64,000 nucleotides of DNA, taken from the NCBI GenBank assembly GCA_010015675.1, contig ML976977.1, forward strand, positions 1,625,836 to 1,689,835. The letters run 5' to 3'. The DNA is from Byssothecium circinans (taxonomy: Eukaryota; Ascomycota; Dothideomycetes; Pleosporales; Massarinaceae). The notes under the pieces were generated by a model. That model ran no database searches, was not told where the DNA came from, and worked only from the letters and a program-made list of their open reading frames with translations. Each line of letters begins with the position of its first letter. Position 1 is the first letter of the stretch. The translations under genes were made by a program, and so were the position numbers. This document shows positions 1,668-18,226 of the stretch, piece after piece.

Positions 1668-3203
1668 TCACTCCAAGCTCTGCGCAAGAGCCCAAAGACT
1701 GTCAATCTTGTTCCGTGAAAGGAAGTGTTTGGCCTCGCCGTCCGTCTCGCACGTCTTGGACCCCCATTTGCGGAAAGCACGCTCCTTGACCTCACCCTCA
1801 AACACTAACTTACATTTATTATAGGAAAGATCCTTTAGGTTGCCCTCCTCGTCAAACGACTTCATCCACTGAGGATCCGAGGCTTGCTTCTCCATTTGGA
1901 TATCGGTCGGCGGTGCGTTATCGGACCATTTGATGCGCTGCAGCATTAGCTTCTTGTATTTGTTGACGGAATGAATACCTCCTTCCACGATGACCAGGTT
2001 CATGTTGGGGTTGAAGAGGGTGATGCCGGTGAGAGCCATTTGCTTGGCGTTGTTATCGATCTTGTAGCGGTGCTGTCCAAAAGCTAGGGTGTCGATCTTG
2101 AACACGCACATGTACAGAGCCTTTGCGGCGTCCTTTTGCTGCTGTTCCTCGATTTTCGCATGCCTTTGCTCTTTGGTCAGTTTGCGCTCCTCGTTGGCTG
2201 CAAGGTGGTTATCGTGGCGCTCTTGGATCTGCGACTCGACCATCATCTCGACGGCGGTGGGATCGGCAATGGCTTGCTCGCCCATGACGCGCATCATGTT
2301 CCCACGTTTGACCTTGGGCGGAGGCGGAGGCTCCAAGCCCAGACGAATCTTGGCCTGCTGTTCTTTGATTTCCTCCGCACGGCGCATCCTCCGCAGCTTC
2401 GCTTGCTCTTTCGGCGTGAGGTACATGGGCTTCGTGACGATGAGCCGTTGATCTTGTGGGGCCTTGAGGTACGAGGGATGTTGGACGTAGAGAGTGATGA
2501 CGGTGTCGTCGCCATGAAGCTTCAGCTTGGCTGGGTCGTCGAGACAGTCGTACGTCTTCTCCTCGAGGAGGCCCTCGTCCCACCACTCCACATCCGGTGG
2601 CGTCTGCACGAGGAAGCCGCGCTCGCTGTTTTCATCGAGACCGGCGCGACGGGCCTGCATAGCGAGCGTCTTTTTGATCTGCTCTAGGCGTTGCTGGGCG
2701 CGCAACTTGGATCCCTGCTCCGTGTACTTGCCCACCTCGTTGAACTGCAGTTGACGCGTCGCTCTAACCCGGCCTGTGCTGACTGCCTTCGGATCGAAGT
2801 AGGGATTCGGTTTCTCGTCCTCGCGCTTGGGCGAGGGTGCTCGTGCTTTGGCGTCGGTGCGGCGAATGTCCAAGGTAGCAGATGGGCGCGGAGGTTCTAC
2901 GGGAGTGACAGGGCCGCCAGATACAATGCTTCCACTGGAGCTGGCATTCTGTGCAGCAATTCTCGCCCTTATGGCATCGAGTCTTGACAGACCGCCTGCC
3001 GGTGCGGCGGATGGCGGAGCAGGCGATGCCCCTTGGCTCTGTCGCACTGGAGCCGGCTCTGGGGCTTTGGAAGCTGCTGCTCTGGCTCTTGCTTTTGCAG
3101 CAATCTCGGCCGCCTTTGCCTTTGCAGCTGCGAATGCATCTGACTTTGGTCGCTTGTTTGGGTCGCCTTGGTCGCTGGGGTGGGGGCGTTTTTCGGCAGC
3201 CAT
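1668..3203 (-). CDS. PRP3: U4/U6 snRNP protein Prp3
   Basis: Single-exon gene for a 511-residue homologue of Prp3 (PRPF3), a core U4/U6 and U4/U6.U5 tri-snRNP protein acting in nuclear pre-mRNA splicing. The N-terminal third is low complexity and rich in Ala, Lys, Pro and Ser. The conserved Prp3 region begins around NPYFDPKAVSTGRVRATRQL and runs through a basic helical part with QQRLEQIKKTLAMQARRAG. The C-terminal domain of the Prp3/DUF1115 type includes HRYKIDNNAKQMALTG and the KYKKLMLQRIKW segment. I chose the ATG at 3,201-3,203 because it gives MAAEKRPHPSDQ, a normal Prp3 N-terminus. The in-frame ATG at 3,374 would add 57 unrelated residues and lies in the divergent promoter. The gene is head-to-head with the RNA polymerase I subunit gene. 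Confidence 0.95.
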   Translation of the reverse strand: MAAEKRPHPSDQGDPNKRPKSDAFAAAKAKAAEIAAKARARAAASKAPEPAPVRQSQGASPAPPSAAPAGGLSRLDAIRARIAAQNASSSGSIVSGGPVTPVEPPRPSATLDIRRTDAKARAPSPKREDEKPNPYFDPKAVSTGRVRATRQLQFNEVGKYTEQGSKLRAQQRLEQIKKTLAMQARRAGLDENSERGFLVQTPPDVEWWDEGLLEEKTYDCLDDPAKLKLHGDDTVITLYVQHPSYLKAPQDQRLIVTKPMYLTPKEQAKLRRMRRAEEIKEQQAKIRLGLEPPPPPKVKRGNMMRVMGEQAIADPTAVEMMVESQIQERHDNHLAANEERKLTKEQRHAKIEEQQQKDAAKALYMCVFKIDTLAFGQHRYKIDNNAKQMALTGITLFNPNMNLVIVEGGIHSVNKYKKLMLQRIKWSDNAPPTDIQMEKQASDPQWMKSFDEEGNLKDLSYNKCKLVFEGEVKERAFRKWGSKTCETDGEAKHFLSRNKIDSLWALAQSLE

Positions 3204-3526
3204 GGCGGCGGCGGAGTTGTCGAGAAGGCGTCGATGGAGGATTAGGATGCGCTTTTCCAATCCCAAGTTCCTGTCGTGCGCTGGGAATGGGGGTGTGTGT
3301 TGTTGACGAGAGGTGACGAGTGATGTACATTCAAATGTTAGGGCTATGGAGGCAATTCGCCTAGCACGTGACACGTGTTTTAGCGCGTCGGGTAATCCTC
3401 GGCGTTAACTTTTCCATCTCGAAAAATTGTCCCCGCAACCCTCACCTTTACTTTCGGCCGTTTCCCGCAAAGCTCCTAGTCAAAGTAAACCGAGGGCGCG
3501 GGTGCAGCGGGTGTCAAGTCGCCAAC
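3204..3526. promoter_or_regulatory. Divergent promoter region between PRP3 and the Pol I subunit gene
   Basis: These 323 bases separate the two divergent start codons and must hold both 5' leaders and promoters. They include a CACGTG E-box-like palindrome embedded in GCACGTGACACGTG near 3,363-3,377. No TATA box is evident. The motif is seen directly; its use is an inference. Confidence 0.5.
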
Positions 3527-6500
3527 ATGAACATCTCTCAACCTGTCGCTTCTGCCATTGACGGTGTAGAATTTGGCCTTTTCACTGCCGAAGACACCAG
3601 AACTATTTCTGTGAAGCGCATAACGAACCCGACGACCTTCGACAGTCTGCTGCATCCGGTTGCTGGCGGTCTACATGATTCAGCGCTTGGAGCTTTTCTA
3701 GACAATGCGTAAGCTCAACATGCCAAAAACCAAACCTTCCAGCGAACGGAACTGATGAGAACAGTTGCTCGACATGCGGATTGACAACCTTGAACGGCTG
3801 CCCAGGCCATTGCGGCCATATCGAACTTCCTGTGCCCGTGTACCACCTCAGTTTCATCGACCAGCTCCTCCGTCTTCTCCGAGGCAAGTGCGCCTACTGT
3901 CACCACTTCAAGATTGCCCGCAAGCAGACCAACGAGATTGCCTCGAAGCTACGGTTAATACGATGCGGGCTCGTGCAAGATGCGAATAACATGCACGAGT
4001 ATGTAAACGAGTCGAAGGGAAAGACCAAAAAGGGTGAAGACTCGTCGGACGAGGACAACGACGAGGACGATATCATCAGCCAGCGCAGCAGCTATGTGAA
4101 GAAGTGCATGAAGCGGGCTGGCATCTCCAAGAGCGATGCGCATGCCGTGAGGCAAAAGACAGAGGCTGTTGCGGATGCGCGGCGGCTAGTCGTCAAGGAG
4201 TTCTATGCGGCAATAACGGGCGGCAAGAAATGCAAAAATTGCGGTGGCATCAATCCCCTCTTCCGGAAAGACCGCGGAGTCAAGATATTCCGAAGGAATC
4301 TTAGCCCGAAAGAACAGGCCACCATGTCTGCATCGGAGAAGCGAATGGAGAATCCGCTAGATATACTTCGGAGACGGGAGGCCAAGGCGAAGAAGCAGCC
4401 TGTCCATGCCGATGAGGGAGTGGCGGACCTGGACCCACCATCAGAGGAGGACTCGGACGTGGACATGATGGATGCCGATGGCTCTTTGGTTGTTTCTGAG
4501 TCTATGACAGCCTCGCGACAGCAAACTAAGACGACGTTAGATTCTCGAGACATCGCACAGGAGTACGTAAATCCTGCAGAAGTCCGGGCTGCCATGATCT
4601 TGCTGTTTGAGAAAGAGGAGGATGTTCTTCGCCTACTCTACAGCCCGTATGCGCGCTCAAAATCGGCACTTGTAGATGTAACGGCCGACATGTTCTTCTT
4701 ACACAACATTGTCGTATCGCCCAGCAGGTACAGGATGGAAGACAGGACCGGCAACTCGATTGCTGAAAACCCGCGGAATTCGCTGTACAAGAACATCTTG
4801 AACGCTTGCGAGTCGATGCGACAGATTCGGAACGAGATGCAAGGTCAAGAGAACGAGCTTGGGTACCGACAGCGCGATTTCCGAGACCTCCAGACCGTCT
4901 GGGTGGATCTTCAGGGTTCGGTAAACGCTCTGATTGACCGTGAAGCCAATCCGGCGCGAGGCGCCGCGGCGAAAGCCAATGCTGACGGTATCAAACAAAA
5001 GCTGGAGAAGAAAGAAGGGCTGTTTCGCAAGAATATGATGGGCAAGCGTGTCAATTTTGCTGCGCGAAGTGTCATATCCCCAGATCCCAACATCGAAACC
5101 AACCAGATCGGTGTGCCTCCTGTTTTTGCGAAGAAGCTTACCTACCCGGAGCCCGTTACAAATCACAACTTCTACGATCTAAAGGAAGCAGTGCTCAATG
5201 GCCCTGACAAATGGCCTGGTGCCGTTGCCATCGAGAACGAGTTCGGCCAAGTCATTTCTTTGAGGAAGAAGAATTACGAGGAGCGACAAGCTCTTGCAAA
5301 CCAGCTGCTGGCCCCTTCGAGCACACATGTCAATGGCTCAAAGAACAAGAAGGTCCATCGACATCTCAACAACGGCGATGTCGTCATGATGAACCGCCAG
5401 CCAACACTACACAAGCCATCCATGATGGCACATCGTGCTCGAGTGTTACCTGGCGAGAAGACGATCCGTATGCACTACGCCAACTGTAATACATACAATG
5501 CTGATTTTGACGGTGACGAAATGAACATGCACTTCCCACAAAACGAGTTGGCTAGAGCAGAAGCTATGCTTGTTGCGAACACTGACAGCCAATATTTGTC
5601 CGCAACAGCGGGTAAGCCTCTGCGAGGCCTCATTCAGGACCACATCTCTATGAGTGTCTGGCTGACAAGCAAGGACATGTTCTTCACTCGCGAAGAGTAC
5701 TACGAGCTGCTATACTGTTCATTACGTCCCGAGGACGGTCATACTACATCTGGTACCGTTCTTACGGTGGAGCCTACCATCTGGAAGCCTCAACCCATGT
5801 GGACCGGCAAGCAAGTCATTACGACCATTCTGAAAAACATCAAGCCTCAGGAATACGTAGAGCTTACACTCACATCGAAGTCACAGACGAATAGCAAGCT
5901 CTGGGGATCTGGTTCTGAAGAGGGCGAGGTCATCATCCAGGATGGTGAATTGCTCTGTGGTATTCTAGACAAGAGTCAGATTGGGCCTGCAGCTGGCGGC
6001 TTGGTTAATGGCGTGTACGAGGTGTATGGGCCCAAATCGGCTGGCCAAATCCTCAGTGTTCTCGGTCGACTACTCACGAGACTGCTCAACATGCGCGCAT
6101 TCTCTTGCGGTGTTGAAGACTTGATCCTTACCAAGGAAGGTGATGAAGCACGGTTAGAGGAACTGAAGAAGGCGGAACAGGCTGGCTTCAAGGTTGCCGC
6201 GAAGTACGTTACCCTGGATTCGGACAAGATCAAATACAATGATCCGGAACTACGACGACGGCTAGAGCAGATAGTTCGCGACGACTCAAAACAACACGCC
6301 CTTGATATTTTGACCAACACGGCCAACGGAGACATCTCATCTGCCGTGACCAAGGCGTGTCTTCCGAACAAGCTCATCAAGCTATTCCCGAAAAATCAGA
6401 TGCAGACCATGACTGGGTCGGGAGCCAAGGGTACTCAGGTTAATGCCAACCAGATCTCCTGTAACCTGGGACAGCAGGTTCTTGAAGGTCGGCGTGTGCC

Positions 6501-16347: not shown

Positions 16348-17864
16348 TTACCACTCTGTACACATAGATTGAAGAGTTTTAGCTGCTGCTTCAGTTGCTG
16401 CTCTCTCTACTTCTTTTTCTGCTACTTTGTCGTTATTTTGTAACGCTAAAAGATCTGCTGCCTGTTTTGCTACCATGATTATATCTATATCTGCAAAGCG
16501 TTGATTTAGGTCTATTCGAATTCTCTTCCATGGCTACTGAGGCTTAAGAGCTTCAAGTTAACTGTGAAGTCTCTTGTTCTCTGCTTCTAGCTCTGCTGCT
16601 CGTGTATTTGCAGTTGTAATTGCCTTGCCTGCTTTCTCAAAGAGCTGGTAAACCTTGCGGCCGATACTCTACTCTCTATAAAGCGCTCGCTGAGCTATAA
16701 AAAGATTACGAGGGCTGTGGGGGGTAGAGAGATAACTCTTAGCAGTTTAAGCTTTATTCTAACGGGGTAGCGTAACAGGCCTTTGAGCGACCTGAGATGA
16801 GTTAACTACCCGCTCAATATTCAATGGGCAGATGCCTGTAGTAGCCCATCCAGCGCGAATTACTCTCTTAGTAATCGCAGTCTCCCTAGCAGCGTGGTAG
16901 GCAGTAATAAAGCGTTCCTTTTTAACTAGGGCAGCATNNNNNNNNNNNNNNNNNNNNNNNNNNNNNNNNNNNNNNNNNNNNNNNNNNNNNNNNNNNNNNN
17001 NNNNNNNNNNNNNNNNNNNNNNNNNNNNNNNNNNNNNNNNNNNNNNNNNNNNNNNNNNNNNNNNNNNNNNNNNNNNNNNNNNNNNNNNNNNNNNNNNNNN
17101 NNNNNNNNNNNNNNNNNNNNNNNNNNNNNNNNNNNNNNNNNNNNNNNNNNNNNNNNNNNNNNNNNNNNNNNNNNNNNNNNNNNNNNNNNNNNNNNNNNNN
17201 NNNNNNNNNNNNNNNNNNNNNNNNNNNNNNNNNNNNNNNNNNNNNNNNNNNNNNNNNAAACGCACTTGATTATCGACGCCCACTCGCGATTCTCTAGAGA
17301 CTGATAGTAAGCCTTCTTTTTCTAACTACTAGCGAGTACTTTAGTGTTTGCACATACGCCTAGCGCCTTCCTAGTCTCATCTATATTCCACGTATCCTCA
17401 GCCTGTATACCCAGCTCGACGCGAAGCTACTCATAGAGCTCAAGAAACTCGCGTATCTGCCTTTGTGTTGCTCCCTCAGCTCTCGCAGCCTCTATCTTCC
17501 TACCTACAACAGATGCGACGCGTGGGTTGCGCTTTAGAAAGCAGGATATCCAATGCTTGCCTATAGGATTGTTGTCCCTATTCATCCTTAGGATTCGATT
17601 CGCCATTTCTCGCGCGCGCGCGTGGGAGGGAGGAAAAGCGCGTGCGTCTTCTTTAAGGATCTATTGTACGAGAAACTCCTCTTGTTGTGGAGTTAATCGC
17701 TGTTAGTATACGTGGCTGGTTTAGCTGCTCTGTCTGCCTCGTAGTCGCGCAGAGAGTGTGGGTTGCGGGATATTGTACGCCTTTGCAGTAGCTCGTTAGC
17801 TAGGAAAAATACTAGTATCAAAGTCACGGATGGCTACTTGTATAGCTTCTTCGCGTTTGTCCAT
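16348..17864 (-). pseudogene. Decayed pogo/Fot1-type DDE transposase (interrupted by assembly gap)
   Basis: Reading the minus strand from ATG at 17,864: DKREEAIQVAIRDF and ATAKAYNIPQPTL form the N-terminal helix-turn-helix. GKHWISCFLKRNP and a basic RKIEAARAEG form the CENP-B-like part. EDTWNIDET.ALGVCAN contains the first catalytic Asp region, and LENREWASIIK follows. After the N gap come KKERFITAYHAARE and RAGWATTGICPLN, the usual end of the DDE region, then a coiled segment (LEAEN, NQRFADI, ending LQSMCTEW at 16,348). Several in-frame stops (mostly TAG, consistent with CAG to TAG) and frame changes break it, so it cannot encode a working enzyme as read. The rest of the DDE triad lies in the gap and cannot be judged. 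Confidence 0.85.
16938..17257. other. Assembly gap (320 N)
   Basis: An unbroken run of N inside the transposon; its true length and content are unknown. It falls in the middle of the transposase reading frame. Confidence 0.99.
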
Positions 17865-17972: not shown

Positions 17973-18086
17973 AGAAAAAATGTGGGAAAACTTAAATAGC
18001 GCGCCCCTGTTATACTTGGCATATTATCATTCATATCATAAGTTTATATATTATAATACCCCAGTTTTATACATCAAGTCGTATCA

Positions 18087-18210
18087 GGTCGCTTAGCTCA
18101 GTTGGTTAGAGCGTAAGTTAACCGATATTACCTCTCTTTACCTCGACTAATTATGTCATCAGGTGGTGCTAATAACGCCAAGGTCGCGAGTTCGACCCTC
18201 GTAGTGACCA
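18087..18210 (+). tRNA. tRNA-Ile(AAU) with a 50-nt insertion between positions 25 and 26
   Basis: Removing 18,113-18,162 leaves 74 nt that fold as a complete tRNA. The acceptor GGTCGCT pairs with AGTGACC (one G-U), with discriminator A at 18,210. The D stem is GCTC/GAGC, the anticodon stem TGGTG/CGCCA with loop CTAATAA (anticodon AAU, Ile), and the T stem GCGAG/CTCGT with loop TTCGACC. The A box (TTAGCTCAGTTGG) and B box (GAGTTCGACCC) are intact. A T6 Pol III terminator follows at 18,221. The insertion is not at the canonical 37/38 site. It begins GTAAGT, contains GACTAAT and ends CAG, like the spliceosomal introns of neighbouring genes. Whether it is removed from the transcript, or instead kills the gene, cannot be told from sequence. 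Confidence 0.85.
18113..18162 (+). other. Spliceosomal-intron-like insertion inside the tRNA
   Basis: 50 nt with donor GTAAGTT, branch-like CGACTAATT 20 nt before the end, and acceptor ATCAG. The length matches protein-coding introns in this window (43-60 nt typical). The boundary could be shifted by one base because G flanks both ends. I see no bulge-helix-bulge pairing of the kind tRNA endonuclease recognises. Confidence 0.75.
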
Positions 18211-18220
18211 TTCATCCGTC

Positions 18221-18226
18221 TTTTTT
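18221..18226 (+). terminator. RNA polymerase III terminator of tRNA-Ile
   Basis: A run of six T residues 10 bases after the discriminator base, as expected for Pol III termination. Confidence 0.85.

Follow-up and report, generated by a model that had tools for sequence, protein, structure and literature searches.

The window analysed here is a stretch of 64,000 nucleotides on contig C1 (1625836-1689835) of the 48.4-Mb, 109-contig assembly of Byssothecium circinans (Massarinaceae, Pleosporales, Dothideomycetes), a dothideomycete host as had been presupposed in the first-pass annotation of this DNA. In the window cmscan gives a single Rfam match, a tRNA at 18087-18210 on the forward strand with a long insert inside it (RF00005; 39.9 bits, gathering score 29); ARAGORN, run with its bacterial setting, called no tRNA for this gene. 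The borders of the insert were placed by a deletion scan, in which every stretch of 30-90 nt was cut out and the remainder was scored for tRNA structure alone, splice motifs being ignored. Three equal top cuts were obtained, which are one 50-nt removal shifted by 0-2 nt, and the removal proposed in the first-pass annotation, 18113-18162 (GTAAGT...CATCAG), is one of the three. The product is a 74-nt tRNA-Ile(AAU) in whose sequence all four cloverleaf stems are pairable, G-U pairs included. The structure parse agrees with the non-canonical placement of the insert at 25/26, and the GTAAGT, GACTAAT, CAG, promoter boxes and T6 run that had been reported are all present. The features of the locus, together with two introns of a protein gene used for comparison, are as follows.

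18045-18057, forward strand: TATA-like stretch 5' of the tRNA gene, from the sequence; weak evidence
18087-18112, forward strand: tRNA-Ile(AAU) exon 1, mature nucleotides 1-26 (Sprinzl 1-25), from cmscan (RF00005) and the structure parse
18094-18105, forward strand: A box (TAGCTCAGTTGG), unbroken, a pattern match to the A-box consensus
18113-18162, forward strand: 50-nt spliceosomal-type intron at positions 25/26, from the structure-only deletion scan and splice anatomy
18113-18118, forward strand: 5' splice site GTAAGT, from the sequence and splice anatomy
18146-18151, forward strand: branch-site-like ACTAAT (within GACTAAT), putative branch A at 18150, at a distance of 12 nt from the intron end
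18160-18162, forward strand: 3' splice site CAG, from the sequence and splice anatomy
18163-18210, forward strand: tRNA-Ile(AAU) exon 2, without a 37/38 intron, unlike the copy on contig C7, from cmscan and the deletion scan
18189-18199, forward strand: B box (AGTTCGACCCT), unbroken, a pattern-search match at C1:1644024
18221-18226, forward strand: T6 run, Pol III terminator, from the sequence
3709-3764, forward strand: RPA1 mRNA intron (comparator), GTAAGC..ACTGAT..ACAG, 56 nt, from mapping of public protein P0001
7048-7094, forward strand: RPA1 mRNA intron (comparator), GTGAGT..GCTAAT..ACAG, 47 nt, from mapping of public protein P0001

The RPA1 gene in the window encodes a protein of 1739 aa. 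Two open frames on the minus strand were also seen: that at 1668-3374 presumably resembles splicing factor PRP3, and that at 16759-17283 contains 320 N bases (16938-17257), its readable end resembling what we take to be a DDE transposase. Two known kinds of intron do not fit the insert of the tRNA gene. A group I or group II intron was rejected, as the insert has 50 nt against a core of a few hundred nt and the tRNA is the sole Rfam match of the window; a canonical tRNA-endonuclease intron was rejected by the position, 25/26 and not 37/38. The RNAfold minimum of the spliced tRNA has four arms, with the T-side hairpin shifted (GGUCG/CGACC) relative to the canonical T stem. When the unspliced transcript is folded, the acceptor stem, four pairs of the anticodon stem and the shifted GGUCG/CGACC hairpin persist, and the D-arm sequence is paired with the intron.

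The search for other tRNA-Ile(AAU) copies that the first-pass annotation had suggested was made by searching the genome with the spliced tRNA. One intact copy was located, at C7:1054724-1054828; it carries an ordinary intron of 31 nt at 37/38, is uninterrupted at 25/26 and differs from the window gene in 4 of 74 mature positions, which make up two compensated base pairs (6-68 and 53-63 in mature-RNA numbering). From this comparison the window gene would have lost the 37/38 intron, or never had it, while it carries the 25/26 intron and keeps its stems. Three further copies (C1:965651, C57:68229 and C5:1548026) are damaged or partial, with changes or losses in the T arm.

The genome was then surveyed for tRNA genes of similar organization. 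A search with the RF00005 profile gave 44 matches, with 63 of 1497 candidates scored and the window's own gene not among the matches, and four patterns combining a B box (GGTTCRANNCC or AGTTCGANNCT) with a T run added further sites; the first of these patterns matched 94 times, against 15 for its reversed control. The sites taken comprised the 44 tRNA matches (36 of them re-extracted with short flanks), 57 pattern sites picked by eye and 3 Ile copies, and the deletion scan was run on 100 sites with a recognisable B box, the window gene included. With genes called intact at a structure score of at least 31, 37 genes needed no extra removal, 32 of them carrying a 37/38 intron, and 17 genes needed one extra removal outside 37/38. 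Five more genes, with seven introns, were resolved when cuts were restricted to GT/GC..AG with CTRAY, namely Arg(UCU) and the Met gene L097, with two introns each, and a Lys gene on C24, a Lys gene on C2 and a Thr gene on C63, the last three having been located by searches with spliced sequences. These seven introns were placed by motif and are therefore not independent of it. In total there are at least 24 introns in at least 22 genes, at sites from the acceptor stem to the T-loop, none of them at 37/38, and 16 of the 22 genes additionally carry a 37/38 intron. The window case, which had been described on its own, is thus real and not a lone one, as 24 such introns occur in 22 of the 59 well-scoring tRNA genes. 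The interrupted genes are listed below, with locus numbers.

Ile AAU, window gene: intron at 25/26
Ser GCU (L018): intron in the variable arm
Lys CUU (L019): intron at 52/53
Lys CUU (L060): intron at 52/53
Lys CUU (L122, C24): intron at 57/58
Lys UUU (L144, C2): intron at 57/58
His GUG (L020): intron at 52/53
Thr UGU (L021): intron at 50/51
Thr CGU (L039): intron at 3/4
Thr AGU (L142): intron in the D-loop
Arg ACG (L045): intron at 4/5
Arg CCU (L047): intron in the D-loop, GC-AG
Arg CCG (L059): intron in the D-loop
Arg UCU (L066): two introns, in the D-loop (GC-AG) and at 26/27
Val CAC (L056): intron at the D-loop/D-stem border
Val UAC (L099): intron in the D-loop
Asn GUU (L057): intron at 52/53
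Asn GUU (L078): intron at 52/53
Pro CGG (L067): intron at 3/4
Ala CGC (L088): intron in the D-loop
Elongator Met CAU (L097): two introns, in the D-loop and at 53/54
Elongator Met CAU (L098): intron in the D-loop

The tRNA inventory is incomplete, with Phe, Trp, Tyr, initiator Met and Val(AAC) absent from it, so "sole copy" here means sole copy found. A single query composed of fungal tRNAs for Phe, Trp, Tyr, initiator Met, Val(AAC) and Met gave no match, a null that reflects the long exact words required by the search, since the Met genes L097 and L098 were missed as well. Leu(UAA) (L036), scoring 30.7, fell under the cut-off of 31 and was left out. Left out of the counts, too, are two paralogous tRNA-like genes, L055 (C4:184026 region) and L068 (around C18:252286), whose acceptor, D and T arms are good but whose long middle resisted parsing and fits neither a 37/38 nor a spliceosomal intron. 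Five similar AT-rich tRNA-like sequences (L037, L038, L041, L042 and L046, on C22, C18, C13, C2 and C20) resemble organellar tRNA or a tRNA-derived repeat.

The 24 introns are alike in anatomy. Their length is 48-64 nt (median 52); they begin with GT in 22 cases and GC in two, have G at position 5 in 23 and end with AG in all 24. A CTRAY motif occurs within the last 35 nt of 23 introns, compared with a mean of 3.8 and a maximum of 12 in 2000 shuffles, and in the same number the putative branch A is situated 9-12 nt from the 3' end; the exception is the Arg(ACG) intron, with CTAAA 5 nt from the end. In the genes where the search had no CTRAY requirement, the motif is found in 16 of 17 introns. 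The agreement between structure and splice signals was measured in the 17 single-insert genes: in 14 of them the exact best cuts by structure alone include a G[TC]..CTRA..AG cut, against 0.5 expected from shifted cuts. The listed intron is an exact structure-only tie in 13 of these genes and lies within one point of the best in three (Val CAC, Ala and Val UAC). In the remaining one, Ser(GCU), it falls outside the 40 best structure-only cuts, with a score of 33.1 against 33.9 for the best, since the variable arm allows many alternative cuts. The comparison with host mRNA introns covers three of them, two in RPA1 and one in a predicted P450 gene model. The branch A of the RPA1 introns is 9 nt (56-nt intron) and 10 nt (47-nt intron) from the end, and the window's 50-nt insert is close to both in length, as the first-pass annotation had remarked for nearby protein genes; for the whole set, 48-64 nt compares with 47 and 56 nt in RPA1 and 112 nt in the P450 model (n = 3).

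We favour, at a probability of roughly 85%, the interpretation that the tRNA-Ile gene of the window is a working nuclear gene whose 50-nt insert belongs to the U2-type spliceosomal introns, as do the other inserts of the set, which numbers at least 24 in at least 22 genes. Inserts, borders, splice signals, the fit of the spliced products and the conservation of exons against introns were all computed. From these we infer the transcription by Pol III, the spliceosomal removal and the order of the steps: RNA polymerase III would make a pre-tRNA from the A and B boxes, the major spliceosome would recognise the 5' splice site, branch site and AG and take the insert out, the tRNA endonuclease would, in 16 of the 22 genes, also take out the ordinary 37/38 intron, and the spliced tRNA would then fold and mature. 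In the Pro, Thr(CGU) and Arg(ACG) genes the intron begins after only 3-4 nt of tRNA, so that the 5' leader would be needed for its recognition.

The assembly of spliceosomes is as a rule coupled to Pol II, and it might be supposed that the introns are removed by the spliceosome from RNA polymerase II transcripts, either their own or read-through ones, with the Pol III copies unused. The state of the Pol III signals makes this very unlikely. In 20 of the 22 genes the DNA has an unbroken A-box pattern, which spans the 5' border of the intron in 3 of them, and the two genes in which an intron breaks it, Arg(CCU) and Val(UAC), are a point in favour of Pol II; the Val(UAC) intron holds TGGTCTAG, to which little weight is given. 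The B-box pattern is likewise unbroken in 20 of 22, a count that is partly by construction, and is exonic in 14 and runs across the 3' border of the intron in six, where the AG of the intron stands in for the missing base, an effect to be expected of every AG-ending intron at 52/53. The pattern is missing from the two Lys genes with introns at 57/58, inside the B box, and both of these B-box-splitting introns carry GTTCGAATC. A third GTTCGANNC sits in the intron of Thr(UGU), a gene which also retains its exonic B box. The occurrence of GTTCGANNC in 3 of 24 introns compares with a shuffle mean of 0.03 and was never reached in 5000 shuffles; the three cases are not three independent events, because the two Lys introns share their position and may share descent. 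A run of at least four T lies within 60 nt of all 22 interrupted and all 37 uninterrupted genes, and this count, like that of the B boxes, is partly by construction, because many of the genes were found by patterns requiring these elements. A TATA-like word upstream occurs in 16 of 22 interrupted genes (shuffled mean 10.9, maximum 18) and in 27 of 37 uninterrupted ones (shuffled mean 18.2, maximum 27), which is weak evidence in both sets.

The tRNA endonuclease is the next enzyme to be considered, as it could cut ectopic introns of the kind known from Cyanidioschyzon, nucleomorphs and Thermoproteales, with a ligase joining the exons and GT..AG being incidental. There is precedent for the positions: archaeal ectopic introns occur at 25/26 and 53/54, among others, and nucleomorph introns of the D and T arms are described as excised, many of those in Guillardia without a defined bulge-helix-bulge (PMC4090602 and PMC3978253). 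Nevertheless, this explanation is very improbable, as it leaves GT/GC..CTRAY..AG with a fixed branch distance (23 of 24 introns) unexplained, and the ordinary 37/38 introns of the same genome do not have these signals. Among 32 such introns, GT..AG was found in none, even when a shift of two was allowed, CTRAY was found in four, and the length was 6-33 nt. A four-pair bulge-helix-bulge centre in register is present in 0 of the 24 introns, yet only 2 of the 32 canonical introns pass, which makes this a weak test; moreover, many Guillardia ectopic introns are without a defined one (PMC3978253), so that its lack says little about the endonuclease route. The splice signals are the stronger argument against this route.

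A further question is whether the interrupted genes are functional at all. The first-pass annotation had considered that the insertion made a pseudogene, and the set could accordingly be seen as dead or dying tRNA genes hit by spliceosomal-like or random DNA. For this speak the three damaged Ile copies and the fact that four of the 18 anticodons (Ile AAU, His GUG, Thr AGU and Arg ACG) also have an uninterrupted gene; nevertheless, it is very unlikely. The spliced bodies of the interrupted genes score 31.0-33.9, against 31.6-33.7 in the 37 uninterrupted genes (the set being cut at 31), and stems and T runs are fine in all 22 genes, the A box being broken in two and the B box in two. The Lys(CUU) genes L019 and L060 do not differ in their spliced bodies, while their introns match in 38 of 54 columns (shuffles with the ends kept: mean 33.6, maximum 39), the first 12 nt being identical; the Asn genes L057 and L078 again have identical bodies, with introns matching in 36 of 59 columns (shuffles: mean 33.1, maximum 40). 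The eight differences between the Met genes L097 and L098 are three compensated pairs and two unpaired sites, and Arg(ACG) L045 equals the uninterrupted L053 over 72 nt. For 14 of the 18 anticodons, including Asn and both Lys, no uninterrupted gene was found in the incomplete inventory, and an intron of this type sits in both Asn(GUU) genes and in each of the four Lys genes found. For Asn there is one anticodon family, and a search with the 16-mer from its anticodon arm, tolerating two mismatches at most, gave 14 places, of which the two exact ones are the interrupted Asn genes; the other twelve carry two mismatches, and a reversed-pattern control gave 23. Decay appears unlikely because the Lys and Asn exons are identical with introns near chance, the stems of Ile and Met are compensated, and all Asn and Lys genes found are interrupted. 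For the window gene, the compensation of both base pairs differing from the C7 copy, the intact promoter boxes and T run and the 21 further genes with the same anatomy all speak against a pseudogene, and the reading as a lone one was dropped after the genome-wide survey.

Introners occur in dothideomycetes, but a family of introner-like mobile elements inserting into tRNA genes, as the first-pass annotation had suggested, is highly improbable, since the 124-nt window gene matches itself alone in a genome search (one that depends on long exact words, so that short diverged copies would escape it), the best intron pairs among the 24 are paralogs (identity 0.77 for Met and 0.70 for Lys, followed by 0.67 for an unrelated pair), so that the tRNA introns form no single family, and the sole traceable intron matches its own 5' flank. 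This intron was recognized when the 24 introns were compared with up to 1.5 kb on each side, on both strands and with 60 shuffles each, flanks for Arg(ACG) and Met L097 being short only. It belongs to Arg(CCG) (L059; around C8:948747-948868, L134) and is similar to sequence just upstream of its gene, with 41 of 48 positions identical and a score of 34 against a shuffled maximum of 15; for the other 23 introns no source stood out in the flanks compared. Because of the match to the gene's own 5' flank, it is probable that at least one intron was gained through local templated insertion, without a mobile family as its source. The Arg(CCG) intron may thus represent a traceable intron birth, which copying from the flank into the gene, for example by template switching at replication, would explain. 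Taken together, of the original interpretation the spliceosomal-type intron stands, its signals being common to 24 introns in 22 tRNA genes, as do its position and, by inference, a transcript spliced by an unexpected route; the pseudogene and the introner find no support.

With U2-type introns of fungal protein genes the introns described here share GT/GC-AG ends, CTRAY 9-12 nt from the end and a length of about 50 nt, as in RPA1. They differ from fungal mRNA introns in sitting among Pol III boxes and T runs and interrupting a folded RNA, three of them after merely 3-4 nt of tRNA. Introns of mRNA type occur in the U6 snRNA genes of Schizosaccharomyces and other fungi, which is likewise a spliceosomal-type intron in a Pol III transcript; however, that case concerns one RNA of the spliceosome, and here at least 22 tRNA genes are involved. 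In the present genome the one full-length U6 match (C14:277621-277720) covers the model with no large insert, and about 150 bases away a second, shorter match (C14:277874-277936) lies on the opposite strand. The rRNA genes of ascomycetes, too, carry spliceosomal introns, and these resemble the present ones as mRNA-type introns in a stable non-coding RNA, although rRNA is a Pol I transcript and not a tRNA. An mRNA intron in the 18S rDNA of deuteromycetes is named in a title cited in PMC11782384. Canonical 37/38 introns are also found in tRNA genes, co-occurring with the present introns in 16 of 22, and are different in position, length and signals. The ectopic introns of Cyanidioschyzon, the Guillardia nucleomorph and Thermoproteales are similar in lying in the D arm, in the T arm or at 25/26, sometimes several per gene, and are ascribed to the tRNA endonuclease (PMC3978253, PMC4090602 and PMC4033280). 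The Guillardia ones are 3-24 nt long and in many cases, like the tRNA introns here, without a defined bulge-helix-bulge (PMC3978253). The string "spliceosom" is absent from PMC4090602 and PMC4033280. The introns of B. circinans are 48-64 nt long and have spliceosomal signals. No precedent for spliceosomal removal of nuclear tRNA introns was seen among the open PubMed Central matches listed, a scope that leaves subscription journals and preprints outside. The novelty of spliceosomal introns in nuclear tRNA genes on such a scale is therefore likely but not proven; the intron type is already known, and the new aspect is likely to be its place in nuclear tRNA genes, on such a scale.

According to the textbook, introns of nuclear tRNA genes lie at 37/38 and are removed by the tRNA endonuclease, and the spliceosome acts on Pol II transcripts. 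If the favoured reading is true, more than 20 spliceosome-type introns in tRNA genes break both rules. Other genomes may hold such genes unseen, because standard tRNA finders may miss or mis-score them, as ARAGORN in its bacterial setting missed the window gene. The fungus would offer a natural system in which to examine whether the spliceosome can act on folded RNA and on transcripts of Pol III. Intron gain, too, would be measurable in it, because the empty site can be located from the tRNA body with nearly single-base precision. Since many of its tRNA genes, including every Asn and Lys gene found, are interrupted, B. circinans probably needs the mRNA-splicing machine to make working tRNAs. 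As far as can be judged from the DNA, it is quite probable that all Asn, Lys and elongator Met genes found, and those of many Arg, Thr and Val isoacceptors, are transcribed by Pol III and then freed of spliceosomal introns, many of them also of an endonuclease intron, with intron-borne replacement B boxes; translation in this organism would then depend on the spliceosome through its tRNAs.
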